Of a DNA stretch of 64,000 nt, positions 2,192-5,435 are shown piece by piece (position 1 is the first letter of the stretch; each line of letters starts with the position of its first letter). The stretch is from Actinomycetes bacterium. GTDB taxonomy: Bacteria; Actinomycetota; Thermoleophilia; BMS3ABIN01. The stretch spans positions 1-64,000 of the forward strand of contig JAJYOG010000001.1 in the NCBI GenBank assembly GCA_021785935.1, written 5' to 3'. The translations under genes and the position numbers were made by a program. Under the pieces are notes generated by a model. The model had not been told where the DNA came from, did not search any database, and worked only from the letters and a program-made list of their open reading frames with translations.

Positions 2192-2563
2192 GATCGTAGG
2201 TTAGCTGCTTTCATGAGCAAGCGCAATGCGGTTCAATAATGAACGCAAAAACGGCGTTTTTCTTCTTGACAGCCTCTGCCGTTCATGTATTTAATTACTT
2301 CGTCGCCGCCTGGGGATTTACTTTTCCCGAGGTGGTGGGGGCGCGGGCGGCAGCTGCGGAAGAAATCGCTGACCTTTGCTGATTTCACGATGCTTATCCT
2401 GACCATCCCACTTTCGACCATTGCGCCTGCGGTTGCGAGTGGGCAGGTGGACCCGCGGCTGGAATGGAAAAGGAGAACCCAACAACGTATTTCCGGGCAA
2501 GGACAAGAAGACTTGTTCGTCGATTTGCAAACAGGTTGCAAACTGAAGTATTGAGGAGGAAAA
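2192..2563. other. 372-base intergenic region between divergent genes
   Basis: No convincing gene is visible. The stretch separates the minus-strand protease gene from the plus-strand sulfur importer. It holds a likely plus-strand promoter at its left end, leaving a leader of about 265 bases before the importer start. The leader contains a G-rich segment near 2335-2360 and several possible stems, but I recognise no riboswitch class. An AGGAGG-like site lies immediately before the ATG at 2564. Confidence 0.5.
2266..2295 (+). promoter_or_regulatory. Putative promoter for the sulfur importer gene
   Basis: TTGACA at 2266-2271 is a perfect -35 match. Candidate -10 boxes are TATTTA at 2288-2293 (16-base spacer) or TTTAAT at 2290-2295 (18-base spacer). 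The predicted transcript would have an unusually long leader of about 265 bases before the importer. Confidence 0.4.
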
Positions 2564-4066
2564 ATGGCTGAAGCCAAGAATGATCGGAACAAAATTTATG
2601 CTGCGGGAGTGGTTGTTTTCCTGGCAATCATTTCGCTCCTGTACTACCTCTCCGCACCGGTATATTTATACATTGTGGCTTATATGTGGTTTGGATTCCT
2701 TTATGGTATTTTGCAGCAGTACGGGCGTTTTTGCATGGCCAGCGCCTGGCGGGACCTGATCATGGTGAAAGTGCCGCGTATGTTTGTAGGCGTAATGATT
2801 GGCATGATAGCGCTCAGCTTCATCGCGGTGTTTATCTTCAACCAATATCCCGAGCGTTATCACACAACCCAGATAGGCCTGCACGGGCTCATCGGCGGCC
2901 TGCTGTTTGGCCTGGGTATGGTCTTCGCCGGAGGTTGCGCAACAGGCAGCCTTTACAAGACCGGTGAAGGTAACATGATTTCGCTTACGGTTCTACTCAG
3001 CCTGTCATTCGCACAGGCGATCTTTGCGGTGACTATCTTTGATTCCATTTTCCAAAGATTCATAGAGTTCCTGCCAAGGACTTCCATGGTAGAGCTGATT
3101 TTCGGGAAGCCGGCGGTACCGGCGGGAACCGAATATCATCTGAATTATGCGGACTATAGTTTCTGGCAGCACATGATCGCCGATGCCGGCGTCAATGCTT
3201 TGTTGATCAGCGCCATACTGCTGATCGGCGTCTATGTCATCGTTGTGCGAAAAGGCTTCCTCCGCCGCCGCGCCGCTGCTATCACGGCTAAATCTGGAGC
3301 CGCCGCAGATGGCGGAGAAGCCAAAATGGGTTTCAAGGACGAAGTGGCTGGTTTCTGGTCCATGATCACTTCCTCCAGGCGTACGTCCATCGCCGCGATT
3401 TTAATCGCCCTCGTCGCCGCCGGTCAGGTCTTCAGCCTCGCCTGGATGGCCGACAAATTCGATTTCATCAACTTCGGAAATGTGCTGGTACATCAGACAG
3501 CCTCCAAAAATGCGCCGCCATCGACCTGGCCGGATGAGACCTATCCAAACGATGTCGCGGTTCGTAGTGGCAATACCGTTTTCGATCCCGGGTACTGGTA
3601 CATCACAACCCAGGAAGCCATGTTCGCCGGCTGGTCGATGAAGACAGTCGGCCTCGACAGCCATCCAGCTGACGGTTCGCCAGGGTATCTGGAAAATAAC
3701 CATTACTTTGGTGATTACAACGGACTTCCCCGGCCATGGCTCAGCCCGGCGATGCTTCTTTCTTTCGGCCTGATCCTCGGAGCATCATTCAAGGCCTTGC
3801 TCGCCAGGGAATTCAAATGGAAGTTCCCCACAAGGGAGTTGTTCATATACGCCGTGATCGGTGGCACGCTTATGGGCATTGGCGCCCGAATCGCGCTCGG
3901 TTGTAACATCGGTGCTTTCTATGCCCCGGTGGCGTTTGGCGATCCCAGTGGATGGGTCTTCTTCGTCGGCATGGGCCTCGGCGCCTATATCTCAGCCAAA
4001 TTCGTGAATTGGATCGCCAACCGCAAGATGGCCGACATGGACATGGATTTCGACATCGAGCTGTAA
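2564..4066 (+). CDS. YeeE/YedE family sulfur (thiosulfate) transporter
   Basis: A 500-residue polytopic membrane protein of the YeeE/YedE (TsuA) family, whose characterised members import thiosulfate. The sequence shows about ten hydrophobic segments. The conserved Cys motifs of the family are present: GRFCMAS (Cys57), GGCATGS (Cys125) and ALGCNIGAFY (Cys447). A hydrophilic, Pro-rich loop of about 100 residues (roughly 305-400) separates two halves. GAGGAGG sits just before the ATG and fixes the start. It is followed after about 50 bases by the TusA gene, which fits delivery of imported sulfur to a carrier. The substrate is inferred; YedE proteins also occur with selenium genes, but none are seen here. 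Confidence 0.88.
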   Translation: MAEAKNDRNKIYAAGVVVFLAIISLLYYLSAPVYLYIVAYMWFGFLYGILQQYGRFCMASAWRDLIMVKVPRMFVGVMIGMIALSFIAVFIFNQYPERYHTTQIGLHGLIGGLLFGLGMVFAGGCATGSLYKTGEGNMISLTVLLSLSFAQAIFAVTIFDSIFQRFIEFLPRTSMVELIFGKPAVPAGTEYHLNYADYSFWQHMIADAGVNALLISAILLIGVYVIVVRKGFLRRRAAAITAKSGAAADGGEAKMGFKDEVAGFWSMITSSRRTSIAAILIALVAAGQVFSLAWMADKFDFINFGNVLVHQTASKNAPPSTWPDETYPNDVAVRSGNTVFDPGYWYITTQEAMFAGWSMKTVGLDSHPADGSPGYLENNHYFGDYNGLPRPWLSPAMLLSFGLILGASFKALLAREFKWKFPTRELFIYAVIGGTLMGIGARIALGCNIGAFYAPVAFGDPSGWVFFVGMGLGAYISAKFVNWIANRKMADMDMDFDIEL

Positions 4067-4114
4067 TCAAGCTAAACTTATATTGGCTGGAAGCAACACT
4101 AGGAGGTGAAAGAC

Positions 4115-4360
4115 ATGAAATTCAACAAGAAAGACGACGGCACTTACGAGTTGGACGTGCGCGGTTATGTCTGCCCGCACCCGCAGCTATATACGCTCAA
4201 GTCCCTGGAGAAGATGCAGGACGGCATGATTCTTGAAGTCCTGATTGACAACCCCTCCTCGGTGGAGTCGGTTACCCAGGCCTGTAATGGCAGGGGATAC
4301 GCGATCCTGGAGCAGAACTCACCGAAGGCTGGTGTTACCGCCATCAAGATCCAGAAGTAA
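4115..4360 (+). CDS. tusA: TusA family sulfur carrier protein
   Basis: An 81-residue sulfur carrier that holds a persulfide on a conserved cysteine and passes it to partner proteins in the cytoplasm. The CPHP motif (C20-P21-x-P23) is the family signature, followed by the usual LEKMQDG helix and a VESVTQACNGRGY segment. The GTG at 4106 is rejected as the start because it lies inside the ribosome-binding site AGGAGGTGA; ATG at 4115 has ideal spacing. It follows the YeeE/YedE importer in the same direction and ends just before a very strong terminator, so the two form one unit. Confidence 0.9.
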   Translation: MKFNKKDDGTYELDVRGYVCPHPQLYTLKSLEKMQDGMILEVLIDNPSSVESVTQACNGRGYAILEQNSPKAGVTAIKIQK

Positions 4361-4380
4361 TTGGTTTTTCCGAAGTCTGA

Positions 4381-4430
4381 CAAGGCACGGGACATACAGG
4401 AAGCATCCTGTATGTCCCGTGCCTTGTTCT
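4381..4430 (+). terminator. Strong Rho-independent terminator after tusA
   Basis: A perfect 21-base-pair stem pairs 4381-4401 with 4406-4426 around the loop AGCA and is followed by TTCTTGCTCT. Such a long perfect stem could work in either direction. It separates the importer-TusA unit from the DsrE-like trio. Confidence 0.8.
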
Positions 4431-4443
4431 TGCTCTATGTTTC

Positions 4444-4472
4444 TTGAGTTACTCTTCGGGCAATAATATAAT
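4444..4472 (+). promoter_or_regulatory. Promoter for the DsrE-like trio
   Basis: TTGAGT at 4444-4449 and a perfect TATAAT at 4467-4472 are separated by exactly 17 bases. It lies 18 bases past the upstream terminator, so the trio is transcribed independently. The leader of about 68 bases contains a small stem (CACCCCT...AGGGGG) before the ribosome-binding site GGAGG. Confidence 0.62.
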
Positions 4473-4546
4473 CGCGGCTGCACCCCTGAATGAAGGGGGC
4501 CGTAACAACGACGATTATGGAGGTGCGTGCGCATGGAGGTTGGATC

Positions 4547-4834
4547 ATGAGTAAACTAGGGATTCTCCTTAACTCGGACAAGTATCGCGATGATGTCGTC
4601 GGCATCATCAAGGCAGCCAAGGCTGCCGGCCATGATGTGTCTGTCTTTATGATGGACGATGGCACCCTGCTGGCTTCGGATATCAGCAGCGAGTGCAGCG
4701 GCGATGCTGAATTCGCTTATTGCGACCATAGTGCCGAGCCCCGCGGCGTCAAGGATGTTCAGGGCGCTTCCGCGGGAAGCCAGTACCAGAACGCAGTCAT
4801 GGTGCATGATGCAGACAAGGTGGTGGTCTTCTAA
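4547..4834 (+). CDS. DsrE-like sulfur relay protein (first of trio)
   Basis: A 95-residue protein of the DsrE/DsrF-like fold, whose members pass persulfide sulfur between carriers such as TusA. It begins with a GILLNSD strand, an amphipathic helix and VSVFMMDDGT, typical of the family. Two cysteines, C50 and C59, lie where family members carry the active or structural cysteine. ATG at 4547 is preferred to the upstream in-frame starts because GGAGG lies seven bases before it. The stop overlaps the start of the next gene (TAATG), indicating translational coupling. Assignment to DsrE rather than another subfamily is by order and length. Confidence 0.75.
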   Translation: MSKLGILLNSDKYRDDVVGIIKAAKAAGHDVSVFMMDDGTLLASDISSECSGDAEFAYCDHSAEPRGVKDVQGASAGSQYQNAVMVHDADKVVVF

Positions 4835-5115
4835 TGGGTGACGATCAGAAAAAACTAGCTGTCGTCGTCAGGGACCGCCAGGGCGAGGCCCTACGCATGT
4901 CACTCGGACTTGTGCTCGCGGATGATCAGGTTACAGTTTTCAACCTCGGCGCTCCGATTGAGAAGAACGACGACAATGACCTGAATGTCGAGAGCCTGGC
5001 CATGATGGATTGCATACTCTATTCGGTCAACCAGAACGACGAGGGCTTTGAGCAGATGGCTATGCAGCAGGTCCCGCTGAAGCTGCTCGAGTACGATCAC
5101 GTCATCGCCTATTAA
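4834..5115 (+). CDS. DsrF/TusC-like sulfur relay protein (second of trio)
   Basis: A 93-residue protein of the DsrE/F superfamily. It shows an N-terminal LAVVVRD strand, a helix with EALRMSLGLVLAD, and a VTVFNLG strand. One cysteine, C60 (MMDCILY), is a candidate persulfide residue. Its start overlaps the stop of the preceding gene by one base and no separate ribosome-binding site is seen, so translation is probably coupled. In known systems DsrE, DsrF and DsrH (or TusD, TusC, TusB) form a heterohexamer; the same arrangement is inferred here from gene order. Similarity is recognisable but distant. Confidence 0.68.
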   Translation: MGDDQKKLAVVVRDRQGEALRMSLGLVLADDQVTVFNLGAPIEKNDDNDLNVESLAMMDCILYSVNQNDEGFEQMAMQQVPLKLLEYDHVIAY

Positions 5116-5129
5116 TAGAGGAGCAATCC

Positions 5130-5306
5130 ATGAAGATACTTCACATCATCAAAGAACGCACACCCTCGGGAAACGCCGAGACCATCATCCAGGACCAGTC
5201 TGAGGGTACGGACAATGACGTAACTGTCGTCAATGTTTATGAAGACAAGGACTACGCCAAGCTGGTAGACCTCATCTTTGCCAGCGACAAGGTTTTCACC
5301 TGGTAA
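5130..5306 (+). CDS. Very short DsrH/TusB-like protein (third of trio)
   Basis: A 58-codon gene: MKILHIIKERTPSGNAE at the N-terminus, then acidic loops, and an end in IFASDKVFTW. The N-terminal LHI strand and the C-terminal DKV..W resemble DsrH/TusB proteins, which are usually 90-100 residues. GAGGAG lies six bases before the ATG, and the gene follows 14 bases after the DsrF-like gene and ends before a clean terminator, all of which supports it as real. It has no cysteine, so it cannot itself carry a persulfide and may be structural. The family assignment is partly by position. Confidence 0.62.
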   Translation: MKILHIIKERTPSGNAETIIQDQSEGTDNDVTVVNVYEDKDYAKLVDLIFASDKVFTW

Positions 5307-5343
5307 AGAACGGCTGCATTAACCCGCATGGGGACATAACCGC

Positions 5344-5375
5344 AAGGGGACACGATGAAATCGTGTCCCCTTTCT
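5344..5375 (+). terminator. Terminator after the DsrE-like trio
   Basis: A perfect 13-base-pair stem pairs 5344-5356 with 5360-5372 around the loop GAA; the right arm ends in a short T run (TTTCT). Confidence 0.7.
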
Positions 5376-5389
5376 CCGAAAAGAACTAT

Positions 5390-5416
5390 AAAAAAGGCCC
5401 TCGCATGAGGGCCTTT
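5390..5416 (-). terminator. Terminator of the cold-shock gene
   Basis: AAAGGCCCTC (5393-5402) pairs with GAGGGCCTTT (5407-5416) around a four-base loop. On the minus strand the stem is followed by a T run (TTTTTTAT), as expected downstream of the cold-shock gene. Confidence 0.75.
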
Positions 5417-5435
5417 CAATTTACCCAAGTGGGTG

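Follow-up and report, generated by a model that had tools for sequence, protein, structure and literature searches.

The 64,000-nucleotide stretch of DNA analyzed here (the window) comes from an Actinomycetes bacterium (GenBank assembly GCA_021785935.1, contig JAJYOG010000001.1, positions 1 to 64,000 of the forward strand). It carries a cluster of five plus-strand open reading frames (ORFs) in the order yeeE, tusA, E′, F′, H′, the last three being working names for the small genes 3′ of tusA. This cluster is very probably a yeeE-tusA-dsrEFH(type II) sulfur delivery module, or YTD cluster, the latter reportedly being the earlier name, from Umezawa et al. 2020. The assignment is based on the gene content, on Cys59 of the E′ protein, on the identity of the E′, F′ and H′ products to those of other phyla, and on the DsrC, dsrAB, DsrMKJOP and DsrL of the same genome. 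The original prediction, made from the DNA alone, is partly confirmed and was essentially right: the five genes lie where it had put them, on that strand and in that order, and its proposal of sulfur uptake followed by a persulfide relay is well supported, both by the recurrence of the gene order in relatives and by the finding of the trio in other phyla. It had also called the unit minimal and outside the usual contexts, and had no final acceptor to offer. These points fail at the level of the genome, where the context is the known YTD/type II one, dsr genes lie on contigs C15 and C16, and a two-cysteine DsrC is encoded on C16. The source assembly measures 1.86 Mb and is 78.6% complete; the window is the start of its 287-kb contig C42.

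Distribution of the cluster and its genomic context

All 19 genomes of the GTDB family have E′; of 80 genomes from the other families in its class, none does. Recurrence of the gene order had been set beforehand as the test on which the prediction could fail; yeeE-tusA-E′-F′-H′ was found in the same position in 16/16 fetched relatives (in one, the contig ends within yeeE). Across 84,980 species, a scan yielded 61 E′ loci, 45 of them outside the family. These 45 are mostly from Nitrospirota, with further loci from Gammaproteobacteria and Desulfobacterota and single records named Deferribacteres, Bacteroidetes, Rhodospirillales and archaeon. At 43 of these loci, F′ and H′ adjoin E′, the trio being arranged in one of three ways (F-H-E, 25; E-F-H, 11; F-E-H, 7). 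The outside stretches, many of which are short contigs that limit these counts, contain yeeE in 29/45, tusA in 26/45 and both in 24/45. When concatenated, the E′, F′ and H′ proteins of the window are 37%–45% identical to those of Nitrospirota and 34%–36% identical to those of Desulfobacterota. In 14 loci a rhodanese gene is found close to the trio, and outside the family such a gene often precedes it (L057–L092); in these same loci, from Nitrospirota and others, the trio is often separated from yeeE by a PMT_2-type membrane protein.

DsrEFH of type II, found with yeeE/yedE-tusA, was described by Plum-Jensen et al. 2026 (PMC13293266). Four Desulfobacterota loci (L095–L097 and L099) read yeeE-tusA-F-H-E, which is the YTD gene content of that paper. 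Its authors place the single active cysteine of type II in DsrE and list subtype 1 in Actinomycetota. The cable-bacterium trio is found alongside yeeE and tusA, and its DsrE, DsrF and DsrH subunits co-purify 1:1:1; TusA persulfide is passed to Cys67 of the Electronema DsrE and not to a Cys67Ser variant, and the complex gives sulfur to DsrC and takes none back (PMC13293266).

The remainder of a Dsr pathway is encoded elsewhere in the genome. Contig C15 carries dsrA-dsrB-dsrL-dsrE-dsrF-dsrH, the last three genes being a canonical (type I) DsrEFH that passes the curated TusD, TusC and TusB cutoffs (TIGR03012, TIGR03010, TIGR03011). Contig C16 carries dsrN-dsrM-dsrC-dsrK-dsrJ-dsrO-dsrP-dsrA-dsrB-(possible dsrD)-dsrL, where the names beyond dsrA, dsrB and dsrC come from gene order and a reading of the sequences. 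The genome holds two dsrAB sets, and the DsrC of C16 ends ...ACKIAGLPKPTGCV, with both C-terminal redox cysteines present. Among family genomes, dsrA and DsrC are in 11/11 searched and canonical DsrE is in 19/19; as E′ is likewise in 19/19, every family genome has DsrE of both types, and because the pattern is family-wide, misbinning of C15 or C16 is unlikely. Gaiellales SURF_19, a family member here (L046), has a layout of the same kind, with three dsrAB sets, an oxidative-type DsrA beside dsrEFH, and DsrL-2 (PMC7596348). Both DsrL sequences of our genome read as containing the YRR motif that Loffler et al. use for DsrL-2, a motif present in oxidizers and reducers alike (PMC7596348). Between dsrB and dsrL on C16 (C16:5400–6100, L136), an 81-amino-acid ORF with no Pfam match is a possible diverged DsrD; dsrD has been reported at the corresponding place in SURF_19 (PMC7596348), and the Pfam DsrD model matched nothing in any genome, controls included, and is uninformative on absence.

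Proteins and control elements of the module

E′ scores over the Pfam DsrE cutoff (29.1 versus 22.7), its Cys59 is invariant in 43/43 aligned E′ sequences, and this cysteine is in register with that of the canonical DsrE of its own genome (hhalign E-value 5e-10; z-score 12.6). F′ has no invariant cysteine and is predicted to adopt an alpha/beta fold (predicted local distance difference test, pLDDT, 94), with a closest Protein Data Bank (PDB) match, 2pd2, that is below significance (E-value 0.017, probability 1.00, template modeling score 0.66). The 58 residues of H′ are predicted to form a beta-alpha-beta-alpha-beta unit (pLDDT 91), for which no significant structural match was seen in the PDB, and H′ aligns weakly with canonical DsrH, the middle missing (z-score 4.0). 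Compared by hhalign with the type I DsrF and DsrH of the same genome, the F′ and H′ families gave no significant match, and neither protein matches a Pfam or NCBIfam model. None of the three has an NCBIfam match, including to TIGR03012, TIGR03010 and TIGR03011 for canonical DsrEFH/TusBCD, and searching PDB sequences with profiles of E′, F′ and H′ turned up no relative. Of the three DsrE-superfamily genes that had been predicted, E′ is recognized as such by Pfam DsrE; F′ and H′ are not recognizable by sequence, and their probable identity as DsrF and DsrH is drawn from position, co-occurrence and published structures.

YeeE matches Pfam Sulf_transp at 148.7 bits (3.6e-43), and TusA matches Pfam TusA at 69.1 bits (3e-19). 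The cysteine motifs and the CPHP motif noticed at the outset are invariant in the family. Cys57, Cys125 and Cys447 of YeeE are kept in 16 family members and in 15/15, 15/15 and 13/15 relatives outside it, respectively, and Cys20 of TusA is kept in 17/17 family and 18/19 other sequences. YeeE falls under the NCBIfam cutoffs for TsuA (106 versus 400 bits and 82 versus 645 bits) and YedE (144 versus 350 bits), its best-scoring model being YedE/FdhT. TusA falls under the cutoff for YedF, its own best-scoring model (58 versus 79 bits).

Table 1. Positions of the cluster genes and nearby sequence elements in the window
Feature	Position	Strand	Basis
yeeE/yedE-family sulfur importer, 500 aa, Cys57, Cys125, Cys447	2564..4066	+	Pfam Sulf_transp
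tusA, 81 aa, CPHP active-site motif (Cys20)	4115..4360	+	Pfam TusA
22-bp perfect inverted repeat after tusA, possible terminator parting yeeE-tusA from trio	4380..4427	+	hairpin scan
Predicted trio promoter, TTGAGT-17 nt-TATAAT within TTGAGTTA-N10-AATAATATAATC	4444..4473	+	10/12 sigma-70 match
Mini-ORF, five codons, MEVGS (ATG GAG GTT GGA TCA TGA)	4532..4549	+	own upstream GGAGGT
E′, dsrE type II, 95 aa, predicted sulfur-carrying Cys59 in YCDHSA	4547..4834	+	Pfam DsrE
F′, dsrF type II, 93 aa, start overlaps E′ stop	4834..5115	+	position beside E′
H′, dsrH type II, 58 aa, no cysteine, C-terminal Trp typical of DsrH/TusB	5130..5306	+	position, weak alignment
Hairpin between H′ and convergent cold-shock gene, probably shared bidirectional terminator	5391..5418	.	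hairpin scan

An alternative tusA start, a GTG codon, lies 9 nt upstream of the one listed in Table 1. The flanking genes, named by reading their translations, are a divergent ctpA-like protease gene upstream and a convergent cold-shock gene downstream; ctpA is upstream in 15/15 family loci with that side visible, and the cold-shock gene is downstream in 13/16. The sequence containing the predicted promoter, TTGAGTTA-N10-AATAATATAATC, had 0 chance matches in 100 shuffles and is unique in the window. It has a counterpart in 17/17 family loci, its −35 half being weaker in five of them (L031, L033, L036, L037 and L039), and the suggestion that the trio has a promoter of its own is borne out. The mini-ORF is framed by two Shine-Dalgarno motifs, and its TGA overlaps the ATG of E′. 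All 17 family loci, two of which were read by eye, show this arrangement, a conservation that partly follows from the fixed spacing between the second Shine-Dalgarno motif and the start codon.

Flanking terminators had also been predicted. Hairpins do exist at 4381–4426 and 5392–5417, but the hairpin total of the region is only slightly above chance (11 versus 7.5 ± 2.2 expected), and most relatives do not preserve the repeat after tusA as a long stem. The downstream hairpin scored as a minus-strand terminator, with a weaker T-tract on the plus strand. A search of the interval from tusA to E′ against Rfam gave no RNA element and one sub-threshold microRNA match on the hairpin. Just 3′ of the trio, positions 5329–5370 hold GGGGACA repeats and a GGGGACAC...GTGTCCCC palindrome, with more GGGGACAC copies elsewhere in the window; these we take to resemble REP-like (repetitive extragenic palindromic) elements. 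Since the trio is transcribed together with tusA in cable bacteria (PMC13293266), this family may differ in controlling it separately.

Proposed relay and competing explanations

In the relay we propose, YeeE would bring sulfane sulfur or thiosulfate into the cytoplasm, and TusA would take up the sulfur as a persulfide on Cys20 and pass it to Cys59 of DsrE(II) within a DsrE-DsrF-DsrH(II) complex, in which the F and H subunits would be structural. The complex would then load DsrC, encoded on another contig, and DsrC would feed DsrMKJOP and DsrAB. The relay roles, with Cys59 as carrier, are suggested by the cable-bacterium homologues, and the importer role of YeeE by its family and by SoxT1A of Hyphomicrobium, through which sulfur reaches the cytoplasm (PMC11582611). 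The imported compound may be thiosulfate, polysulfide or another sulfane donor, and sulfur oxidation is the more likely direction in this organism. Several points weigh against assignment to the type II module or against this use of it. The type II assignment is a sequence-based one made independently of the hidden Markov model scores of PMC13293266, whose authors apply a cutoff of >80 bits; the F′ and H′ models have no significant structural match to DsrF or DsrH; the YRR motifs of DsrL do not settle direction or substrate; and AprA, which 5/6 congeners have, went undetected in this 79%-complete assembly.

A use of the cluster in sulfur disproportionation (as its oxidative half) or in the reductive direction, moving sulfur away from Dsr, seems unlikely to us, though it has support: Desulfolithobacter has higher levels of YTD proteins when it disproportionates thiosulfate (PMC9751629), transfer between TusA and DsrEFH(II) is bidirectional in vitro (PMC13293266), and both DsrL carry DsrL-2-type YRR motifs. 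However, sulfur handed to DsrC does not return to the complex in vitro, the cluster is missing from many disproportionators and present in many organisms that do not disproportionate (PMC13293266), and the type I DsrEFH adjoining dsrABL points to oxidative capacity. The homology of DsrEFH and TusBCD, together with the place of E′ in the DsrE/TusD family, could also be taken to mean that the trio acts as TusBCD does in making the 2-thiouridine of tRNA (TusA to TusBCD to TusE to MnmA). This is very improbable, as the DsrC keeps its two C-terminal cysteines (GPALQACKIAGLPKPTGCV), being of the DsrC and not the TusE type, and the trio tracks the dsr-bearing family, being absent from the 80 other class genomes, which must also thiolate tRNA.

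Least probable of all would be a selenium pair like YedE/YedF, with YeeE and TusA feeding selenophosphate synthesis and the trio incidental. The best-scoring models of both proteins, below cutoff, are of that kind, and the same contig has a selD gene with one in-frame TGA (C42:104635–105567, outside the window, over its family cutoff); because the TGA recurs in most relatives, this SelD probably contains selenocysteine. But selD lies ~100 kb from the cluster and is over cutoff also in 3/4 class relatives without the trio, and the trio travels with yeeE-tusA across phyla.

If the cluster is a type II module, it raises the question of what role type II would have should type I already serve oxidation. 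In 2026, type II was proposed to mark organisms with reductive DsrAB as able to oxidize sulfur (PMC13293266); the searched main text of that paper holds no discussion of a family-wide coexistence of type II with canonical DsrEFH. The question could naturally be put to a family whose genomes all have both types of DsrE and among which two or more dsrAB sets occur. Tentatively, the type I relay, tied to dsrABL, and the type II relay, tied to the importer and having its own conserved promoter and a conserved mini-ORF at the dsrE start, could be division-of-labor branches for different sulfur sources or for opposite directions of a dual-direction Dsr pathway. The Nitrospirae record CG2-30-53-67 (L090) carries a type II trio, and since a genome of that name was reported with dsrTMKJOPCEFH (PMC7596348), the occurrence of both types together may extend to Nitrospirota. 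The relay system itself is already known; both DsrEFH types together, the conserved promoter and the mini-ORF are modestly new. The coexistence of the two types also carries a warning that the direction of sulfur metabolism should not be read from one DsrEFH type alone.

Comparison with known systems

As in the TsuA/YeeE-TsuB/YeeD thiosulfate uptake pair and the SoxT importers, a TusA-like protein accompanies, in the window, a YeeE-family importer that has conserved cysteines at three positions. The YeeE of the window is, however, longer (500 aa versus 330–350) and far under the TsuA and YedE cutoffs, and the pair is linked to a DsrEFH trio. The type I DsrEFH of Allochromatium vinosum (PDB 2HY5/2HYB) resembles the trio in the register of the DsrE cysteine, in the logic of TusA to DsrE to DsrC, and in having three subunits of which H ends in Trp. 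In contrast to type I, E′, F′ and H′ miss the TusD, TusC and TusB models that the C15 copies pass, each is 24–38 residues shorter than its C15 copy, H′ has no cysteine, and the trio is not beside dsrAB. The likeness to type II and YTD clusters extends to the same five gene families with a short trio (about 95, 93 and 58 aa), a single invariant cysteine in DsrE and none in F′ or H′, a contiguous trio adjoining yeeE and tusA throughout the family loci, co-occurrence with dsrAB and dsrC, and EFH identities that fit subtype 1, which includes Actinomycetota. What sets the window apart from these clusters is the order E-F-H after tusA, a promoter proper to the trio where the cable-bacterium trio shares that of tusA, and a genome that also has a type I DsrEFH and two dsrAB sets.

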